The notes under the pieces are model-generated. The model had not been told where the DNA came from, made no database searches, and saw nothing but the letters and a program-made list of their open reading frames with translations. The position numbers were made by a program, and so were the translations under genes. Shown here piece after piece: positions 2,177-19,122 of a stretch of DNA of 25,089 bases. The DNA lies in IMG/VR virus record IMGVR_UViG_3300037189_019805, positions 1 to 25,089 of that record; one strand, given 5' to 3'. Origin of the DNA: a virus. Position 1 is the first letter of the stretch, and each line of letters starts with the position of its first letter.

Positions 2177-2428
2177 TTATTGGTTGGTTTCGTTGGTGAA
2201 AGGTTTAACAGTCAGCTGCCCATCGTTAAGCAGCTGCTGAATAAGGATGGCAGTAGCAGGGTTATCAATGCGGACAAAGCCATTACCACTGTAAAGGTAA
2301 GTCTTCCCCTTTGTGATTATGCCAGCCGGGGCTTCCTCTTGGTGGCAGTGGAACAGATAGAAAGGGCTTTCACCTTCCTTCTTAGGTTGGAAGACTTCAG
2401 CCACCCAAACTTTTCTTAGGGTAGTCAT
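2177..2428 (-). CDS. hypothetical protein in recombination cluster
   Basis: An 83-residue protein that I do not recognise. It begins MTTLRKVWVAEV, has a central region rich in aromatic residues (SPFYLFHCHQEE, then TYLYSGNGFVRID) and ends in a polar tail. The composition suggests a small compact beta-containing domain. There is no signal peptide, membrane segment or metal-binding pattern beyond one HCH. Its ATG overlaps the TGA of the exonuclease gene by one base (TGATG) and its stop is two bases from the next ATG, so it is translated in the same coupled block. An accessory role in recombination is suggested only by position. Confidence 0.7.
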   Translation of the reverse strand: MTTLRKVWVAEVFQPKKEGESPFYLFHCHQEEAPAGIITKGKTYLYSGNGFVRIDNPATAILIQQLLNDGQLTVKPFTNETNQ

Positions 2429-3306
2429 CAGCTGAAAATGATGGCATCAGTTTCATCCTTGGACTTATAAGGTTCAATGATGTTGATTTGCTTGGGGTAT
2501 AGCGGCCAGCTGTTGAAGGCAGTGCAAGCCTTGTAGCTTTCCAAGGCCTGAGTCACTTGCAGCATCCCTTCGTTAATCAGCTCACCACTGATTTCATAGA
2601 TGCCTGTTGCGTAGGGCTTGGACTTTTCAACACAGACCATCCGGAAGCCCTTAGCCCGGATGCCAAAGACCTGCTTGAACAGAAGGCAATAGAAGGCGGC
2701 CTGAAACTGATAGCCCCACTTATAGACTGAGCTGCGGACTGTGTAAGGGCTAAGACGCTTCTCCATACTTTTCAGGTCATAAATCCATCCGTCTTCTGAA
2801 ATCAAATCCACCTGACCCTTCAGGGCAATGTCGCTGTAAGTGCAGGTTAGGGACAGCTCTTGTGCCACCGGCTTGACTCCCCAATGCTTCAGCTCAGCGG
2901 ACAGGGCAAGACCCATAGCCTTGGCCTGTTCCTGTTCATCTTGGTCAACAATGGTCTTACCCTTGGCCAGCTCATTAAAGTTATCCCACCAAGCCTTTGC
3001 CTCAAGGTGTTCCAGCTTGGGCTTCTTAGCGTTAAGCTGCTTCTCAGTGGGCTTCTTAGGTGCGTCTTCAGGGATGGTGATTAGCTCAGCGTTAAACCGG
3101 TCAGGTTCAAGGGTGGCCAGATGCACCAGCGTCCCCATCCGCAGGGCTGCCGTTTCCTTCCGGGGACTATCAAGGTAGTCCCTGAAGTGACCGGCACTGA
3201 CCAAGAGAAGCTTGGCAGCAGATTGGTTCAGGTTGGTGCAAGCGTCATAGTCAGCCCTTGTCCAAGTGGAAGTGGGCAGGGCATCAATCATCTGTTTAGT
3301 TATCAT
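2428..3306 (-). CDS. RecE-like PD-(D/E)XK exonuclease
   Basis: This 292-residue protein (from ATG 3306) matches the exodeoxyribonuclease VIII/RecE-type PD-(D/E)XK fold. An N-terminal GTLVHLATLEPDRF places H62, QEL gives E150, GQVDL gives D167 and YDLKS gives D177 and K179, followed by a helix with YQFQAAFYC as in the family. It would resect double-stranded ends 5' to 3', producing single-stranded tails for the ERF annealing protein encoded upstream at 4034-4792. An ATG at 3357 is also in frame, but it would add 17 proline-rich residues encoded over the end of the preceding gene. I prefer 3306, which leaves an 11-base overlap. The catalytic residues are inferred from spacing. Confidence 0.85.
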   Translation of the reverse strand: MITKQMIDALPTSTWTRADYDACTNLNQSAAKLLLVSAGHFRDYLDSPRKETAALRMGTLVHLATLEPDRFNAELITIPEDAPKKPTEKQLNAKKPKLEHLEAKAWWDNFNELAKGKTIVDQDEQEQAKAMGLALSAELKHWGVKPVAQELSLTCTYSDIALKGQVDLISEDGWIYDLKSMEKRLSPYTVRSSVYKWGYQFQAAFYCLLFKQVFGIRAKGFRMVCVEKSKPYATGIYEISGELINEGMLQVTQALESYKACTAFNSWPLYPKQINIIEPYKSKDETDAIIFS

Positions 3307-3547
3307 TGGGTTTGGGTGCTTTGGGTTTGTTGGTTGGGTTGCAGAAAGGAAAGTCAATGAAGCCGGTGTTGGCTAGCTGGCAAAACAAGGCAGCGTCTGT
3401 CTTGGTATCGAACCTGACCAGCACGCCATCCCAAGACAGGAAGCCGGGGCTGTGCTTGAAGTGGCCACCGGTGACCAAGATGAAATGCTTGGTGCTTCCG
3501 TTGCTGTCCCGGCCTTCTTCAACAGTGTATTTAATTGGCTTACTCAA
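3296..3547 (-). CDS. hypothetical protein, probable TTG start
   Basis: An 83-residue protein if it starts at TTG 3547, which overlaps the stop of the preceding gene in TTGAGTAA. The frame stays open further upstream, but that part lies inside the 69-residue gene and looks like shadow sequence. The protein has a beta-rich middle (KHFILVTGGHFKH, LSWDGVLVRFDTKTDAALF) and a lysine-proline tail. I do not recognise a family. The overlap with the genes on both sides suggests translational coupling inside the recombination operon. The start is uncertain because no Shine-Dalgarno is present to decide it; the C-terminal part and its stop are firmer. Confidence 0.6.
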   Translation of the reverse strand: MSKPIKYTVEEGRDSNGSTKHFILVTGGHFKHSPGFLSWDGVLVRFDTKTDAALFCQLANTGFIDFPFCNPTNKPKAPKPNDN

Positions 3548-3749: not shown

Positions 3750-4041
3750 TTGGGCAGATGGTGCGGATGGTCTTGATGTAAATGTCAGCAGCTTCCCGGT
3801 GTTCCCGGGAATAGTAAAAGGCTTTGTCGGCCAGCTCAGCCAGCTTCAAGGCTGCGGCCTGTGTGACCTTCAGCTGGTCAGCCAGCCCACCGGGTTGGTT
3901 GGCTTGCTTCAGCATCTGGACTTCTTCCAAGGCACGCTGGTAAAGCATCCAGACTTCATCAAAGGAAGCCTTGCTGATGTATTGTTCAGCCTGAGCTTCA
4001 AGGGCAGCTTCAGCCAGCTTGATGGGGATAAGGTTACCCAT
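3742..4041 (-). CDS. hypothetical helical protein next to ERF gene
   Basis: A 99-residue protein predicted to be almost entirely helical (KLAEAALEAQAEQYI, ASFDEVWMLYQRALEEVQML, then TQAAALKLAELADKAF). It has two cysteine-free halves and one cysteine near the end (TICPNG). There are no signal peptide, membrane or catalytic motifs. The start overlaps the ERF stop by eight bases and the stop overlaps the next start. I cannot assign a function; a structural or partner role for the annealing protein would fit the location but is only an inference. Confidence 0.7.
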   Translation of the reverse strand: MGNLIPIKLAEAALEAQAEQYISKASFDEVWMLYQRALEEVQMLKQANQPGGLADQLKVTQAAALKLAELADKAFYYSREHREAADIYIKTIRTICPNG

Positions 4042-4792
4042 TGTTGACTGCCTCCATAAACGCTTGGGTCATCTTGGGATTGCCGGTCAGCAGCTGCACC
4101 TTGTCTTCCGGCAGGAATTCCAGCAGCTCACCTTCGGCCAGCCAGCCCTTCTTCCACAGGATAGCTTCAGCAGACTTAACCTTGGCCACAGTATCAATGC
4201 CAATGGCCACCCACCAAGTGCTTGCCTTGGCTTCCGGCTGGGGCTTCTGCATCACCGGCTTGGCGTAGGCTTGGGCAGGGTAGGGCTTATGGGTGGCAGC
4301 GTTGCCGTCATCATCCAAGTCTGTATCCCCACTGATGCCAGCTAGGGTGCTGATGGAATACCGGCGTAGATAGGTTGTAATGCTACCCAGCTGCTGAAGG
4401 TTTGTGCCTTCAGACTTCACGGCCAATTCACCAAAGTCAAACCGGTGGCCGGTGTGGTGCAGCACTTCAGTCTTCAGGGCAATCCGGGTTTCAGTGGTGT
4501 AAGGGGTCTGAAGGATGGTCAGGCCATACTTCAGGAAGATGGGTTTAACTTCAGCCAGCAGGTCACTAAGCCCAAAATACTTGGACTTGAAATGTGGGTT
4601 GAATTTATCAGCAGCCACATTCTCACAGTGGGCAATGGCCAGCACCAAGGCTTCATTGGGGCTGAGCTGCTTGGCAGCTTCACTGATGCCTTCAATGGTA
4701 GGCTTGGTGATGTTATGCACTGTCTGTTTGATGGAGTCCAGCAGCTGTTGGCTGGCCGGGGTGTCTTCGTTTTGGTCTTTGGCTTTTTTCAT
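4034..4792 (-). CDS. erf: ERF-family single-strand annealing protein
   Basis: This 252-residue protein carries the ERF family core. CENVAADKFNPHFKSKYFGLSDLLAEVKP (56-84) with the F-x-S-x-Y-x-x-L pattern, a beta strand YGLTILQTP, and GSITTYLRRYSISTLAGISGDTDLDDDG (around 137-164), the signature block of ERF proteins. ERF proteins form rings that anneal complementary single strands during phage recombination and genome circularisation. The C-terminal part (from about 190) is a linker with KPQPEAKAS followed by a small variable domain. It is encoded upstream of a RecE-like exonuclease and a DUF669-like protein, the usual set. The start at ATG 4792 follows a C/A-rich leader without a Shine-Dalgarno. 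Confidence 0.93.
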   Translation of the reverse strand: MKKAKDQNEDTPASQQLLDSIKQTVHNITKPTIEGISEAAKQLSPNEALVLAIAHCENVAADKFNPHFKSKYFGLSDLLAEVKPIFLKYGLTILQTPYTTETRIALKTEVLHHTGHRFDFGELAVKSEGTNLQQLGSITTYLRRYSISTLAGISGDTDLDDDGNAATHKPYPAQAYAKPVMQKPQPEAKASTWWVAIGIDTVAKVKSAEAILWKKGWLAEGELLEFLPEDKVQLLTGNPKMTQAFMEAVNNG

Positions 4793-5321: not shown

Positions 5322-5798
5322 TTAGTTTTGGTGGTTAGAAAAGGCGTAGTCCAAGAGCAGCAAGGCATCTGCCGTTGCCAGCGTAAGGTCATCTAGTGCC
5401 GGATACCTGCGTGCAGCTTCTGCTTTCAGGGCTGACTTCCACCGGCTTTGGGTAAGGCTGCCCTTGGCAATGCCAAGACCGGCTTGCCAGACCTGTGGGG
5501 CTATCAGGATAACCCGGTGCTGGCGGCCAGCAGCCCAACCCTCAAGCCATCCGCAGGACTTGCCTAGCTTGAAGGCAGCACTGCTGGGGATTAGGCGGCC
5601 GACAAAGGGAGGGACTTTTTCAATGAAGACCACAGCCCCAAAGGGGATGACCTGTGCAAGCTCCGTAGCGTCAGTGGGCATCTTGTGCAGCCGGATGACC
5701 AGCTTGCCATCTTCCTTAGTCGCTACGGCCACACCACCGGAAGCACCGGGGTCAATGCCAGCAACGGCAGGGAAGTTATCTAGAAGGCTTGTTTTCAA
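5322..5798 (-). CDS. RuvC-like Holliday junction resolvase
   Basis: A 158-residue protein with the RuvC/RNase H fold signature. AGIDPGASGGVAV holds D16, VVFIEKV holds E60, and LATADALLLLDYA near the end holds D144, with D150 close by. These would bind two Mg ions and cleave four-way junctions formed during annealing-based replication or before packaging. I chose TTG 5798, five bases after the previous stop, because the fold motif begins 12 residues later. An ATG at 5849 would add 17 histidine-rich residues encoded over the end of the transglycosylase gene. No Shine-Dalgarno decides between them. The length is normal for phage RuvC-like enzymes. Confidence 0.83.
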   Translation of the reverse strand: MKTSLLDNFPAVAGIDPGASGGVAVATKEDGKLVIRLHKMPTDATELAQVIPFGAVVFIEKVPPFVGRLIPSSAAFKLGKSCGWLEGWAAGRQHRVILIAPQVWQAGLGIAKGSLTQSRWKSALKAEAARRYPALDDLTLATADALLLLDYAFSNHQN

Positions 5799-5806
5799 GG
5801 GCGGGA

Positions 5807-6238
5807 TTATCTGAGCAGCTTGGACTTGCGGATGGTGATGGCAGGGCAACGCTCTATGTCAAATCCTCTTTTCCGGTATCCATTGAAGCCAAGATTGTGG
5901 ATGGCATACAGGTCAACCAGCGTAGCCTTGCGGCCGGTGGCTTGGGTGAACCTAGCTGCATTGATGGACAGCCAGCTGTGCAGGTAGTCCCTAGCCACAG
6001 ACGCATTAAGGGCATTGTGGTAGGGGAAGACCGGCAACCCCTGCTTGGCACGCCAAGCGGATGTGTCCTGCCAAGCTGCGTAGTGAAACTGTGCCAGCCC
6101 TAGGCCAGCACCCCGGTCACCGGTGGCTGAAGCCCGGCCGCTGCTTTCAATGGCAATGACCTTATCCAGCATAGCTGGGGTGATGGTAGCCTTAGCCAGA
6201 CTGCACATAAGGAACAGGGGTAGCAGGGCAGACTTCAT
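5807..6238 (-). CDS. secreted lytic transglycosylase-like protein
   Basis: From ATG 6238 the 143-residue protein begins with a signal peptide (MKSALLPLFLMCSLAKA), with a likely signal peptidase site after AKA. The mature part resembles a small lysozyme/SLT transglycosylase domain: LDKVIAIESSG with E31 as candidate catalytic acid, then GAGLGLAQFHYAAW in place of the usual G-x-x-QF block, and a later DLYAIHNLG helix. It would cut peptidoglycan glycan strands in the periplasm. It is encoded between DNA repair genes rather than beside the holin candidates. It overlaps the previous gene as ATGA. It may be the endolysin or a muralytic protein with another role; the fold is probable, the job less certain. 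Confidence 0.75.
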   Translation of the reverse strand: MKSALLPLFLMCSLAKATITPAMLDKVIAIESSGRASATGDRGAGLGLAQFHYAAWQDTSAWRAKQGLPVFPYHNALNASVARDYLHSWLSINAARFTQATGRKATLVDLYAIHNLGFNGYRKRGFDIERCPAITIRKSKLLR

Positions 6239-7449: not shown

Positions 7450-7644
7450 TTACTTCCGGTTAGGGGTGAACAGGGAACACAGGCTGACCCCAAGGATGAC
7501 CGGGATGAGCAGGGTGAGGAAGAAAAGGGCAATGCCGTAGCAGCCCTGTTCATAGTCGGCCTGAGACATAGGCTGTTCAGCTGCCGTGTGTTGGCTGACG
7601 GCCTTGCTAGGGGGCGTAGGCAGGGGCGGGATAAGGGTCTTCAT
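7450..7644 (-). CDS. small single-pass membrane protein
   Basis: A 64-residue protein from ATG 7644 (MKTLIPPLPTPPSK). A proline-rich head is followed by a short acidic polar stretch and a hydrophobic segment (GIALFFLTLLIPVILGVSLCSLF) that should span the membrane once, ending in a short basic tail (TPNRK). The frame is open upstream, but that part overlaps the previous gene. The leader is CAGACCTATG, the same CCTATG context as its neighbours. Function unknown; it is five bases upstream of the ligase gene. Confidence 0.65.
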   Translation of the reverse strand: MKTLIPPLPTPPSKAVSQHTAAEQPMSQADYEQGCYGIALFFLTLLIPVILGVSLCSLFTPNRK

Positions 7645-7661
7645 AGGTCTGGTGGCTAAGG

Positions 7662-7877
7662 TTACTTGGTGACCGGGTGGCCGTAGGTTTGGTGTTCCAG
7701 CCGGCACTGCCATTCAAGGCTAGCCAGCATCTGGTTAACAACCTTACGCTTTAGGGCATTGGGCTTCTGGCCAAGACTGTTCAGCCAGAAGATAGCCCGG
7801 TGCTTGGTGGAGGGAAGCACACCCGGCAGGGCAATGGCTTCAGTGATGGGGTGGGTTTTCATAGGTTGGGTGGTCAT
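7662..7877 (-). CDS. small hypothetical protein with tandem starts
   Basis: A 71-residue protein (MTTQPMKTHPITEAIALPG) of unknown family, basic and helical in its second half (ALKRKVVNQMLASLEWQCR). Two in-frame ATG codons lie 15 bases apart, at 7877 and 7862, both in a CCTATGA context. The upstream one is the last copy of a leader cassette shared with the genes at 8100 and 9397. Which start is used cannot be decided from sequence, because there is no Shine-Dalgarno. Confidence 0.65.
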   Translation of the reverse strand: MTTQPMKTHPITEAIALPGVLPSTKHRAIFWLNSLGQKPNALKRKVVNQMLASLEWQCRLEHQTYGHPVTK

Positions 7878-7880
7878 AGG
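7868..7880 (-). repeat. CCTATGACCACCC start cassette, copy 1
   Basis: An exact 13-base copy of the element that contains the ATG of the 7662-7877 gene. Identical copies lie at 8091-8103, 9373-9385 and 9388-9400, each containing a start codon. Confidence 0.8.
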
Positions 7881-7884
7881 GAAA

Positions 7885-8100
7885 TTACTTGGTCACCGGG
7901 GCTACGCTGGAAAGGAATTTCTTAATGCCGGCCAGCGTGGACTCAGACCCGGACTGCTGGCCACCACCATTGTCAGTGGCAAAGCCGGGCTTAAGATTGA
8001 TGAAGTAAGTCTTACGGCCAAAGTCTGACTCAATAAGGATTTCAGAAACGGCAGGATTAGACTTAAGGATTTGCAGGGTAGTCATAGGGCGGGTGGTCAT
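7885..8100 (-). CDS. small hypothetical protein with tandem starts
   Basis: A 71-residue protein (MTTRPMTTLQILKSNPAVSEI). The middle looks like a small beta unit (ILIESDFGRKTYFINLKPGF) followed by a glycine/serine-rich linker (GGGQQSGSES) and a short helix. Starts at 8100 and 8085 are in frame, 15 bases apart, each in a CCTATGAC context. No family recognised. It ends with SVAPVTK, close to the PVTK ending of the 7662-7877 protein, which together with the similar start suggests that these small genes arose by duplication of flanks or cassettes. Confidence 0.65.
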   Translation of the reverse strand: MTTRPMTTLQILKSNPAVSEILIESDFGRKTYFINLKPGFATDNGGGQQSGSESTLAGIKKFLSSVAPVTK

Positions 8101-8103
8101 AGG
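8091..8103 (-). repeat. CCTATGACCACCC start cassette, copy 2
   Basis: An exact 13-base copy containing the ATG of the 7885-8100 gene. A one-mismatch copy follows 15 bases further on, at 8076-8088, giving a second in-frame ATG. Confidence 0.8.
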
Positions 8104-8135
8104 TGATAAATTGGATGGTCAGGGCAGGGTTGTCA

Positions 8136-8164
8136 AAGCGTTTTGATTGGCCGGCAGGGTTAGG
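8136..8164 (-). repeat. 29-base direct repeat, copy 1
   Basis: A perfect 29-base match to 8363-8391. It contains the TAA of the 8160-8345 gene and continues into the gap before the next start. Its core GCCGGCCAATC also occurs at about 9404-9414, before another gene of this cluster. Confidence 0.9.
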
Positions 8165-8345
8165 CTTCAAGGCTAGCAGCATAAGCTAGGCTGTCCTGAT
8201 GGTTGACCTTGGCAGAAGCCTTCCGGCCGGCAAACAGGGCAGACCCAATCTGGTTGCCGTCAGCATCCTTAATCTGGGTGACCCATAGCCGGCTGGTGGC
8301 ATCCCACCAAGTTTCAATCCGGTGGCTGGCTGTGTCGTTTGTCAT
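8160..8345 (-). CDS. small hypothetical protein
   Basis: A 61-residue protein (MTNDTASHRIETWWDATSRLWVTQIKDADGNQIGSA) with a tryptophan-containing beta hairpin pattern, W-x-x-x-x-x-x-W, then DADGNQIG and a helical end (DSLAYAASLEA). The hairpin resembles small phage proteins of unknown function in which a two-stranded sheet is followed by an alanine-rich helix. It has no signal or membrane segment. Both its stop and the stop of the preceding gene lie inside copies of a 29-base repeat. Confidence 0.65.
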   Translation of the reverse strand: MTNDTASHRIETWWDATSRLWVTQIKDADGNQIGSALFAGRKASAKVNHQDSLAYAASLEA

Positions 8346-8362
8346 AGCTAGGATGGTCTAGG

Positions 8363-8391
8363 AAGCGTTTTGATTGGCCGGCAGGGTTAGG
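8363..8391 (-). repeat. 29-base direct repeat, copy 2
   Basis: Identical to 8136-8164 over 29 bases. It carries the TAA of the 8387-8938 gene and leads into the leader of the 8160-8345 gene, where a shared GACCATCC extends the similarity. Confidence 0.9.
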
Positions 8392-8938
8392 ACTGCACCC
8401 GGGCTTCAATGTCATCCCACACAGCAGCGTTGGCTTTGTTCCTGCGACCGGTGGCAGAAGTAGCCTTGGCCACATAGCCGGCTTGCTTCCAAGACAAGGG
8501 GTAACGCACTACCTGTTCAGCAAGGGAAGTGTGGAAGTCAGAATTACAGGCCATCAGAATAGCCACCACATCAGCAAAACGCTCAGTCCGTTCAGCAATC
8601 TTAGCATCTTCAGCATCCTTTAAAGCTTTGTATTCAGCAGCCCAAGCCTGACGCTTGGCATCCCGGGCTGCAATTTCCTCAGTGGTCTTCCGGTAGCGGA
8701 TGCTGTCGGCATCAACCCCAATCTTCTCAGCACAATCACTGCCAACAAAACGCTTCCGGCCGTCTTCATCCCGGATGACAATGTGATGGGTGATGCCCAT
8801 ACCACATTGGGAACAGCTGCCACAGCCTTCAGGCAAAGCCCTGACAAGGTTGTTATAGGCTTCCGGGTTATGTTCAGCCAAGGAAGCTGAAGGGATGCTG
8901 AAAAAGCCAATGACCTGAGCGTTACGAATAGATTTCAT
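8387..8938 (-). CDS. putative zinc-ribbon protein
   Basis: A 183-residue protein with a cysteine cluster C39-x2-C42-x2-C45, followed by ITHHIVIRDEDGRKRFVGSDC with C69. This looks like a zinc-binding ribbon of the sort seen in phage and host proteins that report CGxC..H..DG..FVGSDC. The C-terminal two thirds is a long charged helix region (EEIAARDAKRQAWAAEYKALKDAEDAKIAERTERF) ending in a second small domain with W and basic residues. The zinc-ribbon reading is from residue spacing. Nucleic-acid binding is plausible but not shown. The start ATG 8938 is in a CACCTATG leader. Confidence 0.7.
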   Translation of the reverse strand: MKSIRNAQVIGFFSIPSASLAEHNPEAYNNLVRALPEGCGSCSQCGMGITHHIVIRDEDGRKRFVGSDCAEKIGVDADSIRYRKTTEEIAARDAKRQAWAAEYKALKDAEDAKIAERTERFADVVAILMACNSDFHTSLAEQVVRYPLSWKQAGYVAKATSATGRRNKANAAVWDDIEARVQS

Positions 8939-8968
8939 AGGTGTATTATCTTGGGGGTTAAAGGGTGC

Positions 8969-9397
8969 TTAGAAGGTGGGCAGCTTGGCAACAAAGGCTT
9001 CAAAGCTGATGGCTTCCTTAGCCTTCATCCTCCGGTCATACCGGGCTTTGTCGTTATGCTGCTGCACAGTGCGGACATAAAGGGCATAGGCATCAGCCTG
9101 AAGCTCAGCAATCCGGGAACGATAGCTAGCAAGGTAGCCATCAACCTTGGCCTGTGACTCATCAAGGTTTGAAAAGTCGTGGGAAGACACCCGAGAAAGG
9201 ACACAGGCAATAGTGCAATCACCAACCTGATAGTGATTAAGCAGCAGCTGATAGATGGGGTAATTCTTTTCAAGGAAAGCAACCCGGGCTTCAATGTTGC
9301 CCTGCAAATGCTGACCAGAAACGCTGCCTTGGGTCAGCAGATAATTGAAATTAGCAAGGGACTTAATGGCTTGGGTGGTCATAGGTTGGGTGGTCAT
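8969..9397 (-). CDS. hypothetical protein with duplicated start cassette
   Basis: A 142-residue protein from ATG 9397 (MTTQPMTTQAIKSL); a second in-frame ATG lies at 9382. An upstream GTG at 9421 would also extend the frame but lies in the leader. The protein is helical with tyrosines (NFNYLLTQ, EKNYPIYQLLLNHYQVGD, QADAYALYVRTVQQHNDKARYDRRMKAKEAISF). No motif allows a functional call. A perfect TATAAT sits 55-60 bases upstream, so this gene may begin a transcript that covers the small-gene cluster and the enzymes after it. Confidence 0.68.
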   Translation of the reverse strand: MTTQPMTTQAIKSLANFNYLLTQGSVSGQHLQGNIEARVAFLEKNYPIYQLLLNHYQVGDCTIACVLSRVSSHDFSNLDESQAKVDGYLASYRSRIAELQADAYALYVRTVQQHNDKARYDRRMKAKEAISFEAFVAKLPTF

Positions 9398-9400
9398 AGG
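9373..9400 (-). repeat. tandem start cassette, two exact copies
   Basis: Two exact copies of CCTATGACCACCC (9373-9385 and 9388-9400) with a 15-base period, each carrying an in-frame ATG. This makes the N-terminus read MTTQPMTTQ. The same element serves two other small genes, at 7868 and 8091. Confidence 0.85.
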
Positions 9401-9454
9401 AAAAGATTGGCCGGCTGCCACCTGTCCGTCAAACCATTTACACAGGGGTAATTG

Positions 9455-9683: not shown

Positions 9684-10025
9684 TTACTTCCCGCCCCGGC
9701 CTAGGGTAATCTTCCAGCCCAAAGCCCCAGCAATCATACAGCATCCCACCCCCAAGGCCAGACTTACATCCCGGCAGGTTAGCAGGGCTTGGGTGGCACT
9801 GTTCAAATTCCTTTCCAAGTTTTTATCATCAGCCACAAAGGTCTGGCCGGGTGTGTCCGTTATCAGCAGTGCCATCACATTGGCAGACCGGATGCTGGTT
9901 AGGATGAAGTCAGCTGTGAGATAGACAGTGATTGCACACAGACCGGCAATGAAGATGCACCCAATGACAGCCAGCAGCAGGTTGGCCGGGTGCATCCCAT
10001 AGGGTCTGGTTTCAGTGTCAGCCAT
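9684..10025 (-). CDS. two-helix membrane protein of lysis region
   Basis: A 113-residue protein from ATG 10025, which overlaps the TGA of the holin candidate as TGATG. Two transmembrane segments are evident, LLLAVIGCIFIAGLCAITVYL (about 17-37) and VSLALGVGCCMIAGALGWKI (about 87-106). They are separated by about 50 polar residues containing VADDKNLERNLNSATQALL. A short basic tail follows. With the preceding gene this makes a pair of small membrane proteins. It could be an antiholin or second holin, but no family motif is visible. Confidence 0.72.
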   Translation of the reverse strand: MADTETRPYGMHPANLLLAVIGCIFIAGLCAITVYLTADFILTSIRSANVMALLITDTPGQTFVADDKNLERNLNSATQALLTCRDVSLALGVGCCMIAGALGWKITLGRGGK

Positions 10026-10402
10026 CACTTAGTCTTCTTCTTTTTCTTAGGCTGCTTGGTGGCCTTGCTCAATCCCCTTTGTGCTTCCTGCACCTTGCCC
10101 TTCATCTTGGCTTCAAGGAATTGTAGGCCATAGTTTAAGATTTCCGGGCTGGCAAAACCGGCAACGCCACAGATGCAAACCCTAAGGTTTTCAGACTGCA
10201 CATAGTCCTTGCTGGCGAAGTTAACGAAGTAGGCAGTGACCATAGCGGCAATGCCTGACCTGACTAGATAGCCCCAACTAGGCCGGTCTGTGGACAAGAG
10301 CTGCCGGGCAACCATTGCAGACCCACCAAGGGCAGCGGAAATGACTCCCTGCTTCAAGGCTTCATCAGAAGTAACTGAGTCAAATGCCGGGGCTGCTGCC
10401 AT
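10025..10402 (-). CDS. probable holin (LydA/phage holin 3-like)
   Basis: A 125-residue protein with two or three hydrophobic segments (GVISAALGGSAMVARQLL, VRSGIAAMVTAYFVNFAS and LRVCICGVAGFASPEILNYGLQFL) and a strongly basic C-terminus (KATKQPKKKKKTK). The block CGVAGFASPEILNYGLQFLEAKMKGK resembles the GlaGylGpevLd region of LydA-type holins. Holins oligomerise in the inner membrane and release or activate muralytic enzymes. The basic C-terminal tail is typical. The start ATG 10402 lies 23 bases inside the end of the lipoprotein-like gene. Confidence 0.7.
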   Translation of the reverse strand: MAAAPAFDSVTSDEALKQGVISAALGGSAMVARQLLSTDRPSWGYLVRSGIAAMVTAYFVNFASKDYVQSENLRVCICGVAGFASPEILNYGLQFLEAKMKGKVQEAQRGLSKATKQPKKKKKTK

Positions 10403-11531: not shown

Positions 11532-13118
11532 TCAGCAGAAGGTTAGGACATAGACAGCCCCATTAGCCCCAGCACCCCCAGCACCGGAAGCATAGCCATT
11601 ATCACTAGCTGAGCCACCCCCGCCACCACCTGCTGGCCAACCACCCTTGCCACCGGCCTGACCAATGCTGGCATTTTTATAGCCACCCCCGCCACCACCT
11701 GTGCCACCAAAATTGTAAGTGCCATCTACACCATTGCCAGCCGGGGTGGATGTGGCAGGGTTGCCGCCTGTGCCACCAGCAATGGCATTGATGATTGTGG
11801 ACAGCACATCACCGGCAGCAGCTGTTTTGCCACCAGCGTTGCCGCCAACATTGTTGGTCAGGATTGTGGCTGATTGACCATTTCCACCACCACCACCGGT
11901 GGCAGAGAAATAGAATTGGTAGGCGGTATTAGACCCATTGGGTGCAGTCATTCCAATCTGACCAGCACCGGCTGTGTTTGGCAGTGTGCTACCCAAAACA
12001 CCCCAAAAGGAATAAAAACCATTGGAAGTCATTGTGGCGGTAGAAGTGCGGCCGGGTGACCCACCATAGCCAAGGCCAGCTTGGTAATTTCCAAACTTGG
12101 AAGCAGTCCCCATCCCACCTGTAATGCCAAGGCTGTCATTGGTAGTAACACCCAAAGCCCCAGCACCACCAGCACCCACAGTGACTGTGACAGTGGAAGG
12201 CAAATCTGCGGCATTAAGTAGGTTGATGAAGTAGCCACCACCAGACCCACCAGCACCACCACCCCGGGAAGTGCTGATTGAATACCTAGCCCCAGACCCA
12301 CCCCCGCCACCCCCGCCAAACATAATCAGCAGGATGGTCTTAGCGTTGGCAGGTTTTGTCCAAGTGAAGTTTCCGGCACTTGTGCTAGAGCCAAATACCT
12401 GAAGGTCAGCCCCACCACCACCGGAAGGCGTAGCCCAAATGACATTGTAATCTGTGCCATCAACCTTGGTGGCCACCTGACCGGCAGTGCCTCCGGCCGG
12501 AAGGCCAGCACCGGTATCACCCTTAACGCCTTGGATGCCCTGCAAGCCTTGGATGCCTTGTGCCCCGGTAGCTCCGGTAGCCCCTGTATCACCGGTGTCA
12601 CCCTTATCACCCTTCAAGCCTTGGATACCCTGAATACCCTGTGCCCCGGTAGCCCCTGTAAGTCCGGTAGCTCCGGTGTCACCTGTATCCCCTTTATCAC
12701 CCTTCAGACCTTGGATGCCTTGGATGCCCTGCAAACCCTGTTCACCGGTATCACCCTTGTCACCCTTCAGACCTTGGATGCCCTGTGCCCCGGTAGCTCC
12801 GGTAGCCCCTGTATCACCCTTGATGCCTTGGATGCCTTGCAACCCTTGGATGCCCTGCAATCCCTGCACGCCTTGCTGACCCCGGGGAATTGTGAAATTC
12901 AGCAGGGCAGCTGCGGCATTGCCAGCGTTGGTGATGATGACGGATGTGCCGGGTTCACCGGTGGTCACTGTCCCAACTTCGATAGTGGCAGCAGCACCCG
13001 GGGTGTTGGCCTGAGCTGTGAAGCTTTCCACCGGGGAAGGGACACCGGTGATGGCGGCATTGTTTGCCGTAAAGCTTCCAATGTTTACGGCACTGTTAAA
13101 GGTGGCGTTGAATTCCAT
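11532..13118 (-). CDS. collagen-like, glycine-rich tail fibre / adhesin
   Basis: A 528-residue protein. Residues 1-79 form an N-terminal beta region that could attach to the tail. Residues 80-205 consist of 42 uninterrupted Gly-X-Y triplets (for example [18 protein letters not shown]), predicted to trimerise as a collagen helix. [28 protein letters not shown] motif, common in phage fibres, follows. The C-terminal 290 residues are a glycine-rich domain with runs such as [10 protein letters not shown] and [10 protein letters not shown], ending GAVYVLTFC, resembling glycine-rich adhesin tips. It is probably the receptor-binding fibre. The leader has no Shine-Dalgarno. Low-complexity stretches make alignment-based naming unsafe. 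Confidence 0.85.
12504..12881 (-). repeat. collagen-triplet coding repeat
   Basis: Codons for 42 Gly-X-Y triplets form imperfect direct repeats of 9, 18, 27 and 45 bases, with recurrent blocks for [13 protein letters not shown] and [10 protein letters not shown]. Such arrays expand and contract by recombination or slippage, so fibre shaft length may vary between isolates. Confidence 0.85.
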
Positions 13119-15555: not shown

Positions 15556-15578
15556 TGGCTTCTTATTATGCTAAATGG

Positions 15579-16463
15579 TCAATTTGTTGCGTCAGGGCTT
15601 ACCCCTGTTAGCACAGTGTTCCCAAATTCCACCCATACATCTTCACCCCCAATGATGCTATGGGTGACCGGGTTAACCACTTGGGGATTTCCAGCAAGGT
15701 AAAGCTCATAGTTAGCTAGCGTTGCTTGCACTGTAATAGGAATTTGGGTCACTGTGGCAGGGTTAACCACATAGTCATAACTGCCATAGGCGTTGGCTTG
15801 CCAGAAGCCGGTGCTGGTAAGCACTTCCAAATAGCCTGTGTAAGTCCGGCCAACAAACCAGAAGTGATTAAAAATAACTGTGTCCGCAGTAGTGATTTCA
15901 ATGGGTGCTAGGGTTGGTGGTGTCCTTGGTGGCATCCCGGGTGGGGCTGATTGATACCCATTATACCCATCACCAGCTGGCACTGTCCTTACCCCGGGTG
16001 ACCATTCAGGTTCATAGACCAGAAATGGTGTGACAGCTGTCCTTGTTAAAAACTCACTTTCAGGAAAAGGAATGATGGCCGCAGCTGGTGTAATTGAATA
16101 ATCAGTTTCAACTGTGAAGCTGGCACTGATAGAGTTATAACCATCATAGAAGTAATTTGATGTTCCTGAATAAACATCTTCATCATAATCAATTGTTCTC
16201 CCCATCTGGTTGCACAGGAATTGAACATTAAAACGGAAACCAGATGAAAGCCCTGTGTATGTGGCATACAGCGACCAAGTGCGGAAACCATCGTCATCAA
16301 CTTCTTCATCAGGTCTGCCTGTGCCGCCTGTATGCCGGCTGTTTTTTTGATACACTAGCCCATTAAGCTGAACGATAGAAAAGCCAGACGCAGCAGGTGT
16401 TCCCCAGACCGGTGGGGTGGTGGAGTTTGCAGGGTAATAGCCAGCTGGGTAAGTGTCAGACAT
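15579..16463 (-). CDS. tail structural protein
   Basis: A 294-residue protein rich in aromatic residues and proline (PAGYYPANSTTPPVWGTPAASG; later YFYDGYNSISASF and PPGMPPRTPPTLAP). Beta strands dominate. It probably belongs to the distal tail or carbohydrate-binding part, but no family can be named. The stop is 23 bases from the large fibre start, and the start overlaps the end of the 156-residue gene by eight bases. The sequence is less GC-rich than its neighbours, which may reflect a recently exchanged host-range gene; this is an observation by eye. Confidence 0.7.
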   Translation of the reverse strand: MSDTYPAGYYPANSTTPPVWGTPAASGFSIVQLNGLVYQKNSRHTGGTGRPDEEVDDDGFRTWSLYATYTGLSSGFRFNVQFLCNQMGRTIDYDEDVYSGTSNYFYDGYNSISASFTVETDYSITPAAAIIPFPESEFLTRTAVTPFLVYEPEWSPGVRTVPAGDGYNGYQSAPPGMPPRTPPTLAPIEITTADTVIFNHFWFVGRTYTGYLEVLTSTGFWQANAYGSYDYVVNPATVTQIPITVQATLANYELYLAGNPQVVNPVTHSIIGGEDVWVEFGNTVLTGVSPDATN

Positions 16464-19091: not shown

Positions 19092-19104
19092 TAGGGTATC
19101 CCTA
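19092..19104. other. short inverted repeat upstream of tape measure gene
   Basis: TAGGG and CCCTA flank a three-base TAT, seven bases upstream of the tape measure ATG. It could form a small hairpin in the mRNA leader and limit ribosome access. With a five-base stem it is weak and may be chance. Confidence 0.3.
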
Positions 19105-19122
19105 GTTTTGCCATTTAGTCAA

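Follow-up and report, generated by a model that had tools for sequence, protein, structure and literature searches.

Recurring double-ATG start cassettes at unrelated small genes of a tailed phage and its relatives

The small-gene array and its start cassettes

The window analysed here is a whole 25,089-base viral contig from a tailed phage. Nearly all of its genes, which were called by a simple ORF rule, are on the minus strand, and it also encodes capsid, S49 protease and tape measure proteins. Three small genes with a common cassette at their starts are placed between the lysis genes and an ATP-dependent DNA ligase. The features considered are as follows:

10025-10402, minus: holin-like protein on the lysis side of the array (phrog_6384; PF16083 below its cut-off)
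9427-9432, minus: TTGACG, a candidate promoter element 35 nt upstream of the first ATG in gene 8969-9397
9373-9385 and 9388-9400, minus: exact copies of CCTATGACCACCC
9380-9400, minus: double-ATG start cassette CCTATGACCACCCAACCTATG of the 142-aa gene, inside a perfect tandem of 15-nt period (9371-9400)
8969-9397, minus: 142-aa ORFan MTTQPMTTQAIK (MTTQPMTTQAIKSLANF...), whose L095 homologue starts at the second ATG only
8387-8938, minus: 183-aa array ORF with a single CCT|ATG start
8160-8345, minus: 61-aa array ORF with a single start
8131-8136, minus: TTGACA, a candidate promoter element 36 nt upstream of the first ATG in gene 7885-8100
8091-8103, minus: exact copy of CCTATGACCACCC
8083-8103, minus: double-ATG start cassette CCTATGACCACCCGCCCTATG of the 71-aa gene 7885-8100
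8076-8088, minus: copy of CCTATGACCACCC with one mismatch, in which the second unit of the preceding cassette runs on as CCTATGACTACCC
7885-8100, minus: 71-aa ORFan MTTRPMTTLQIL (MTTRPMTTLQILKSNP...), whose L094 homologue has the second ATG only
7868-7880, minus: exact copy of CCTATGACCACCC
7860-7880, minus: double-ATG start cassette CCTATGACCACCCAACCTATG of the 71-aa gene 7662-7877, beginning 7 nt past the preceding gene's stop codon
7662-7877, minus: 71-aa ORFan MTTQPMKTHPIT (MTTQPMKTHPITEAIALPG...), whose L098 homologue has the second ATG only
7635-7664, minus: degenerate cassette TAACCTTAGCCACCAGACCTATGAAGACCC, in which the first ATG is gone relative to L094/L099 and the second is retained
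7450-7644, minus: 64-aa probable small membrane protein MKTLIPPLPTPP... (membrane character predicted, judged from sequence), directly upstream of the ligase; its family begins MTxxTMK in L094 and L096-L099
6578-7444, minus: ATP-dependent DNA ligase, the fixed border of the array, with the start ACCT|ATG
5322-5849, minus: Holliday-junction-resolvase-like protein (phrog_1770)
4034-4792, minus: Erf-type single-strand annealing protein (PF04404; phrog_2324)
2428-3309, minus: exonuclease VIII (RecE)-like nuclease (phrog_412; PF12684)

A pattern scan recovered the four exact copies and the single-mismatch copy of the 13-mer CCTATGACCACCC at the positions given in the original prediction. When up to two mismatches were allowed there were 10 matches, compared with 0.8 expected and a maximum of 3 in 100 shuffles; at 7853-7865 and 7635-7647, weaker copies form second units of this kind. 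The original prediction gave the 13-mer only. The full recurring unit, read in gene orientation, is CCTATGACCACCC(AA/GC)CCTATG, which is 21 nt long and contains two ATGs 15 nt apart. At 9400-9380, 8103-8083 and 7880-7860 this unit encodes MTTQPMT, MTTRPMT and MTTQPMK respectively. The three genes have no Pfam or PHROG family match, and their products show no mutual alignment past the first 10-14 residues. The claim that three unrelated small genes share a common start, with no similarity of their products beyond the N-terminus, is therefore confirmed, and homology along the whole proteins is absent.

Other repeats were noted in and around this region. An exact 17-nt repeat, GGCCAATCAAAACGCTT, is found in two gene leaders at 8136-8152 and 8363-8379 (minus strand; 0.02 expected), and in L094 and L096-L099 the leader AGATAAAACGATT|ATG precedes unrelated genes. 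A TTGAC-N6-GCA-(TAATTAA-like) motif occurs at 19103-19122 and 15563-15582 (minus strand), and in relatives; it is located in intergenic gaps, 31-40 nt before many virion gene starts, a spacing unlike that of a sigma-70 promoter. Collagen-like GXX tandem repeats (12508-12866) lie within a 528-aa tail-fibre-like ORF (11532-13118).

Scanning IMG/VR with the double unit yielded eight contigs; a broader pattern brought in nothing beyond further records of this group and one chance match. Capsid relatives at 68-100% identity were found at 44 loci. The pre-ligase region was extracted from 19 related records and its genes were listed; in these relatives small genes form a variable array there. Ten families start MTxxxM with an ATG spacing of exactly 15 nt and are mutually unrelated by BLASTP after trimming of eight residues, although nine is the safer count, since a remote relationship is possible between the two families that resemble small membrane proteins. 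Of 458 non-redundant starts, 19 have an in-frame ATG at codon 6, the peak among all codons, and 17 of these 19 are the cassette or its variants. The motif is thus present across a group of related, uncultured IMG/VR phages, and the observation is more general than originally stated.

A scan of the genomes of 84,980 species gave no real cassette copy. The lone genome match (Butyricicoccus, L113) lies in another frame of a long ORF, and a further viral match (L115) is antisense to a 500-codon ORF. Both matches were attributed to chance on these grounds, and the cassette was rejected as a host or prophage element. No capsid relatives were found among the same 84,980 species genomes. The sole named phage relative in the capsid comparison is Verrucomicrobia phage P8625 (L118), and because its identity is 30%, a Verrucomicrobia host for the phage group is only likely.

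Start context and choice of ATG

SD-like tetramers were found at the Shine-Dalgarno (SD) position of 47 of the 458 starts, compared with 32 of 458 in a control stretch (Fisher p ~0.1). There is thus no clear SD enrichment at −20 to −4 in the phage group. The description of the cassette as SD-less agrees with this group-wide result. CCT precedes the ATG at 112/458 starts (24%) but at only 22/694 internal in-frame Met codons (3.2%; Fisher p ~2e-28), and at 113/2032 out-of-frame ATGs (5.6%). The base preceding the start ATG is T in 58% of cases and C in 2%, and AC commonly follows the ATG directly. The scarcity of C at −1 is explained by the near absence of CATG from the group, which however leaves unexplained the surplus of CCT over other T-ending triplets. 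CCT|ATG is favoured group-wide, genes outside the array included. Since this is the group's usual start context, the cassette amounts to two ordinary start contexts in tandem. The proposed reuse of an initiation module on unrelated genes is upheld by these results, while its standing as a special initiator is not, nor is a role as ribosome standby. The starts of P8625 are SD-poor and lack the CCT preference.

RNA folding of the three start regions was unremarkable (z-scores −1.4 to 1.2, no stable stem-loop), so that lack of structure is no special property of the cassette, and upstream-ATG depletion in the leaders gave no clear signal. A codon-level constraint on the CCT before the second ATG was also considered and rejected. 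It reached significance when overall codon usage was the reference, but not when the codons preceding internal Met were, because the Pro before an internal Met is CCT in 22/29 cases, CATG being absent.

Several palindromic tetramers do not occur in the window at all: CATG (123 expected), GATC (88), ATAT (38), ACGT (27), GTAC (27) and GCGC (24). Every relative (L094-L112) likewise has no or almost no CATG and GTAC, while other missing tetramers are phage-specific, such as GGCC in L108 (0/66) and CCGG in L036 (0/87). This looks like extreme restriction-site avoidance. P8625, though only distantly related, has no GTAC against 53 expected. The window also shows a strand asymmetry of CTATG, with 94 occurrences on the coding strand and 5 on the other.

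Which of the two ATGs is used can be addressed by comparing homologues. Within families the second ATG is always retained and the first is often missing. The same genes occur with and without the first ATG in the window versus L094, the window versus L095, L099 versus L098, L110/L111 versus L106/L108/L109, and L094/L099 versus the window. The first ATG was lost in different ways: by a 5-nt deletion in the window's ligase-adjacent gene and in the L095 homologue, by a 4-nt deletion in L106/L108/L109, by an ATG-to-AAG change in L096, by that same change plus the loss of 1 nt in L097, and by an ATG-to-TTG change together with a 1-nt deletion in L098. In L094 and L095 different leaders precede the second ATG. 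The distances between pairs of CCTATG peak at 15 nt. Because homologues keep the second ATG, often without the first, the second is probably the obligatory start, and the comparison suggests that the first is read when present. Judged from the same homologues, the amino-acid tag as such is dispensable.

Joints between neighbouring genes

Two relatives contain junctions at cassettes. In L110, 577 of 600 nt to the left of the cassette match the L108 region preceding gene A (MTTRPMKPTAPT), while gene B (MTTRPMKTHKS or MKTHKS) is matched by 137 of the 150 nt on the right; alternative alignments match at about 30%. With flanks that match the pre-A region and gene B, what L110 lacks is precisely gene A, from one cassette to the next. 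L095 has the stop codon of the 142-aa gene fused to the cassette of the 71-aa gene (left 377/403, right 209/216), a position at which the window carries three other genes. In the window and L094/L099 the joint is longer and takes in the preceding gene's end (GTGACCAAGTAATTTCCCTATG). Homogenisation within one genome is seen in G012, where three unrelated genes have a private cassette variant that is 93% alike over 30 nt, compared with 63-73% to the cassettes of their own homologues elsewhere. Over all genomes the effect is modest, the cassettes of unrelated genes being 0.76 alike within genomes and 0.68 between. The original prediction had the cassette spreading by duplication. Copying or recombination is supported, and the L110 deletion and the L095 junction indicate that the element also acts as a recombination joint.

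For Rad52-like phage recombinases, one of which is the Erf of phage D3, short stretches of shared homology suffice (PMC3945230). The Erf, RecE-like nuclease, resolvase and ligase of this phage suit recombination at short repeats, and we infer that Erf-type annealing, with the nuclease, resolvase and ligase, made these joints.

Explanations and comparison with known systems

We consider it probable that the cassette combines two roles, as an SD-less start module and as a joint for recombination. Its reuse as a start module is well supported, and both a function of the tandem in initiation and the annealing mechanism are plausible. The cassette would be a portable, SD-independent start site, in which two CCT|ATG + ACC ACC contexts are joined in frame at a distance of 15 nt. 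Of the two ATGs, the second would be the obligatory start, and the first, where present, would add an extra in-frame start and put a C/A-rich stretch where the SD of the second ATG would lie. Ribosomes would then initiate at either ATG, and the tandem would raise expression, although it may be that one of the pair is silent. Because the starts of neighbouring unrelated genes, often at stop/start junctions, carry the same 20-45 nt, small genes could be deleted, swapped or copied at these joints by the phage's own annealing recombination, and each incoming gene would bring a working start. A bolder version, in which this is a plug-in SD-free tandem-AUG module for SD-poor hosts, with both AUGs used, and doubles as a joint for accessory-gene exchange, is offered tentatively, as doubtful.

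The joints could also be all there is to the cassette, which would then be a recombination scar, a stretch of short homology that annealing or illegitimate recombination has spread and that supplies no more than an ATG. The L110 deletion, the L095 junction, the private variant of G012 and the recombination genes fit this explanation, as do the other leaders (AGATAAAACGATT|ATG and GGCCAATCAAAACGCTT) that recur before unrelated or different genes. However, the copies lie exactly at starts and carry CCT|ATG, a context favoured group-wide and in genes outside the array, and the exact 15-nt spacing is maintained in double forms; we regard a scar alone as unlikely. Transcription could instead be leaderless, running from a TTGAC promoter at about −36 with the transcript 5′ end at or near the first ATG and a CA-rich downstream enhancer, while the second ATG would serve on leadered read-through mRNA. 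TTGAC peaks 33-38 nt before starts, including 8131-8136 and 9427-9432, T|A at the start is compatible with a pyrimidine-purine transcription start, and E. coli can translate 5′-terminal AUGs alongside a downstream start (PMC4965119). On the other hand, no consistent −10 element was found; copy 7860-7880, like most of those in relatives, is 6-12 nt past a stop codon and has no TTGAC, and many TTGAC sites precede virion genes at other spacing. A sigma-70 promoter scan of the array showed no excess. Leaderless initiation is, in our judgement, decidedly improbable.

The remaining alternatives place the significance of the cassette in the proteins. That several small proteins have similar N-termini would be expected if MTTxPM were a peptide tag that acts in the protein itself (in targeting, co-injection or stability), but homologues lose the tag and begin at the second Met, the residues vary (Q/R/H/N, P/T/N), and in L094, L097, L098, L106 and L108 the DNA motif stays untranslated or out of frame, which makes a tag very unlikely. 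Descent of the genes from one ancestor, as old duplicates that diverged except at the start, is hardly credible: a length of 71 aa and the ending PVTK are common to two of the three proteins, but this ending is part of the repeated stop/start junction, the two 71-aa proteins have no local alignment once the N-terminus is removed, the third is 142 aa, and some ten unrelated families carry the cassette.

How starts are found without an SD in SD-poor bacteria is poorly known. The natural matched pairs found here, in which a gene occurs in single-start and double-start forms, together with the strong group-wide context, make the question testable with reporters. The cassette is also a clear example of a start signal as a joint for phage accessory-gene exchange. 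In a survey of SD-poor initiation, Akkermansia and Verrucomicrobia bacterium IMCC26134 are SD-scarce (PMC10783764), and the phage group resembles them in its lack of SD enrichment. That survey is not known to describe a CCT|ATG context or a tandem double start.

The closest described parallel is the start-associated sequence (SAS/ESAS) of cluster K mycobacteriophages, a 13-bp asymmetric repeat at the translation starts of different gene families, for which a role in initiation was proposed and within which the preceding gene's stop codon can lie (PMC3203893). SAS is GGGATAGGAGCCC, is located upstream of the start at the ribosome-binding position, has the SD core AGGAG and is present in 11-19 copies per genome (PMC3203893). 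The cassette is likewise found at the starts of several unrelated families (about ten) within one phage group. Its sequence, however, is CCTATGACCACCC, in a group without SD enrichment; it spans the start codon(s), whereas SAS is immediately upstream; and each contig has 1-3 double units, though contigs may be incomplete. As sequence, position, SD and copy number all fail to agree, the cassette is not a member of SAS.

T4-type phages reportedly (Arbiol and colleagues, 2010) have mobile regulatory cassettes, promoter-early stem-loops, between genes. These also are short expression signals that are repeated at gene borders and accompany small-gene shuffling, but the element described here has no stable stem-loop and includes start codons. 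As to an early promoter, TTGAC stands at −35/−36 of two of the three copies, with no −10 element. C/A-rich sequence near the start can raise initiation, as is the case for downstream CA repeats in enteric bacteria. ACA motifs enhance translation of SD-containing mRNAs in enteric bacteria (PMC3879156). Those effects were shown in SD-containing enteric mRNAs; the cassette resembles them in placing a C/A-rich sequence, ACCACCC, near the start, where it may act likewise.
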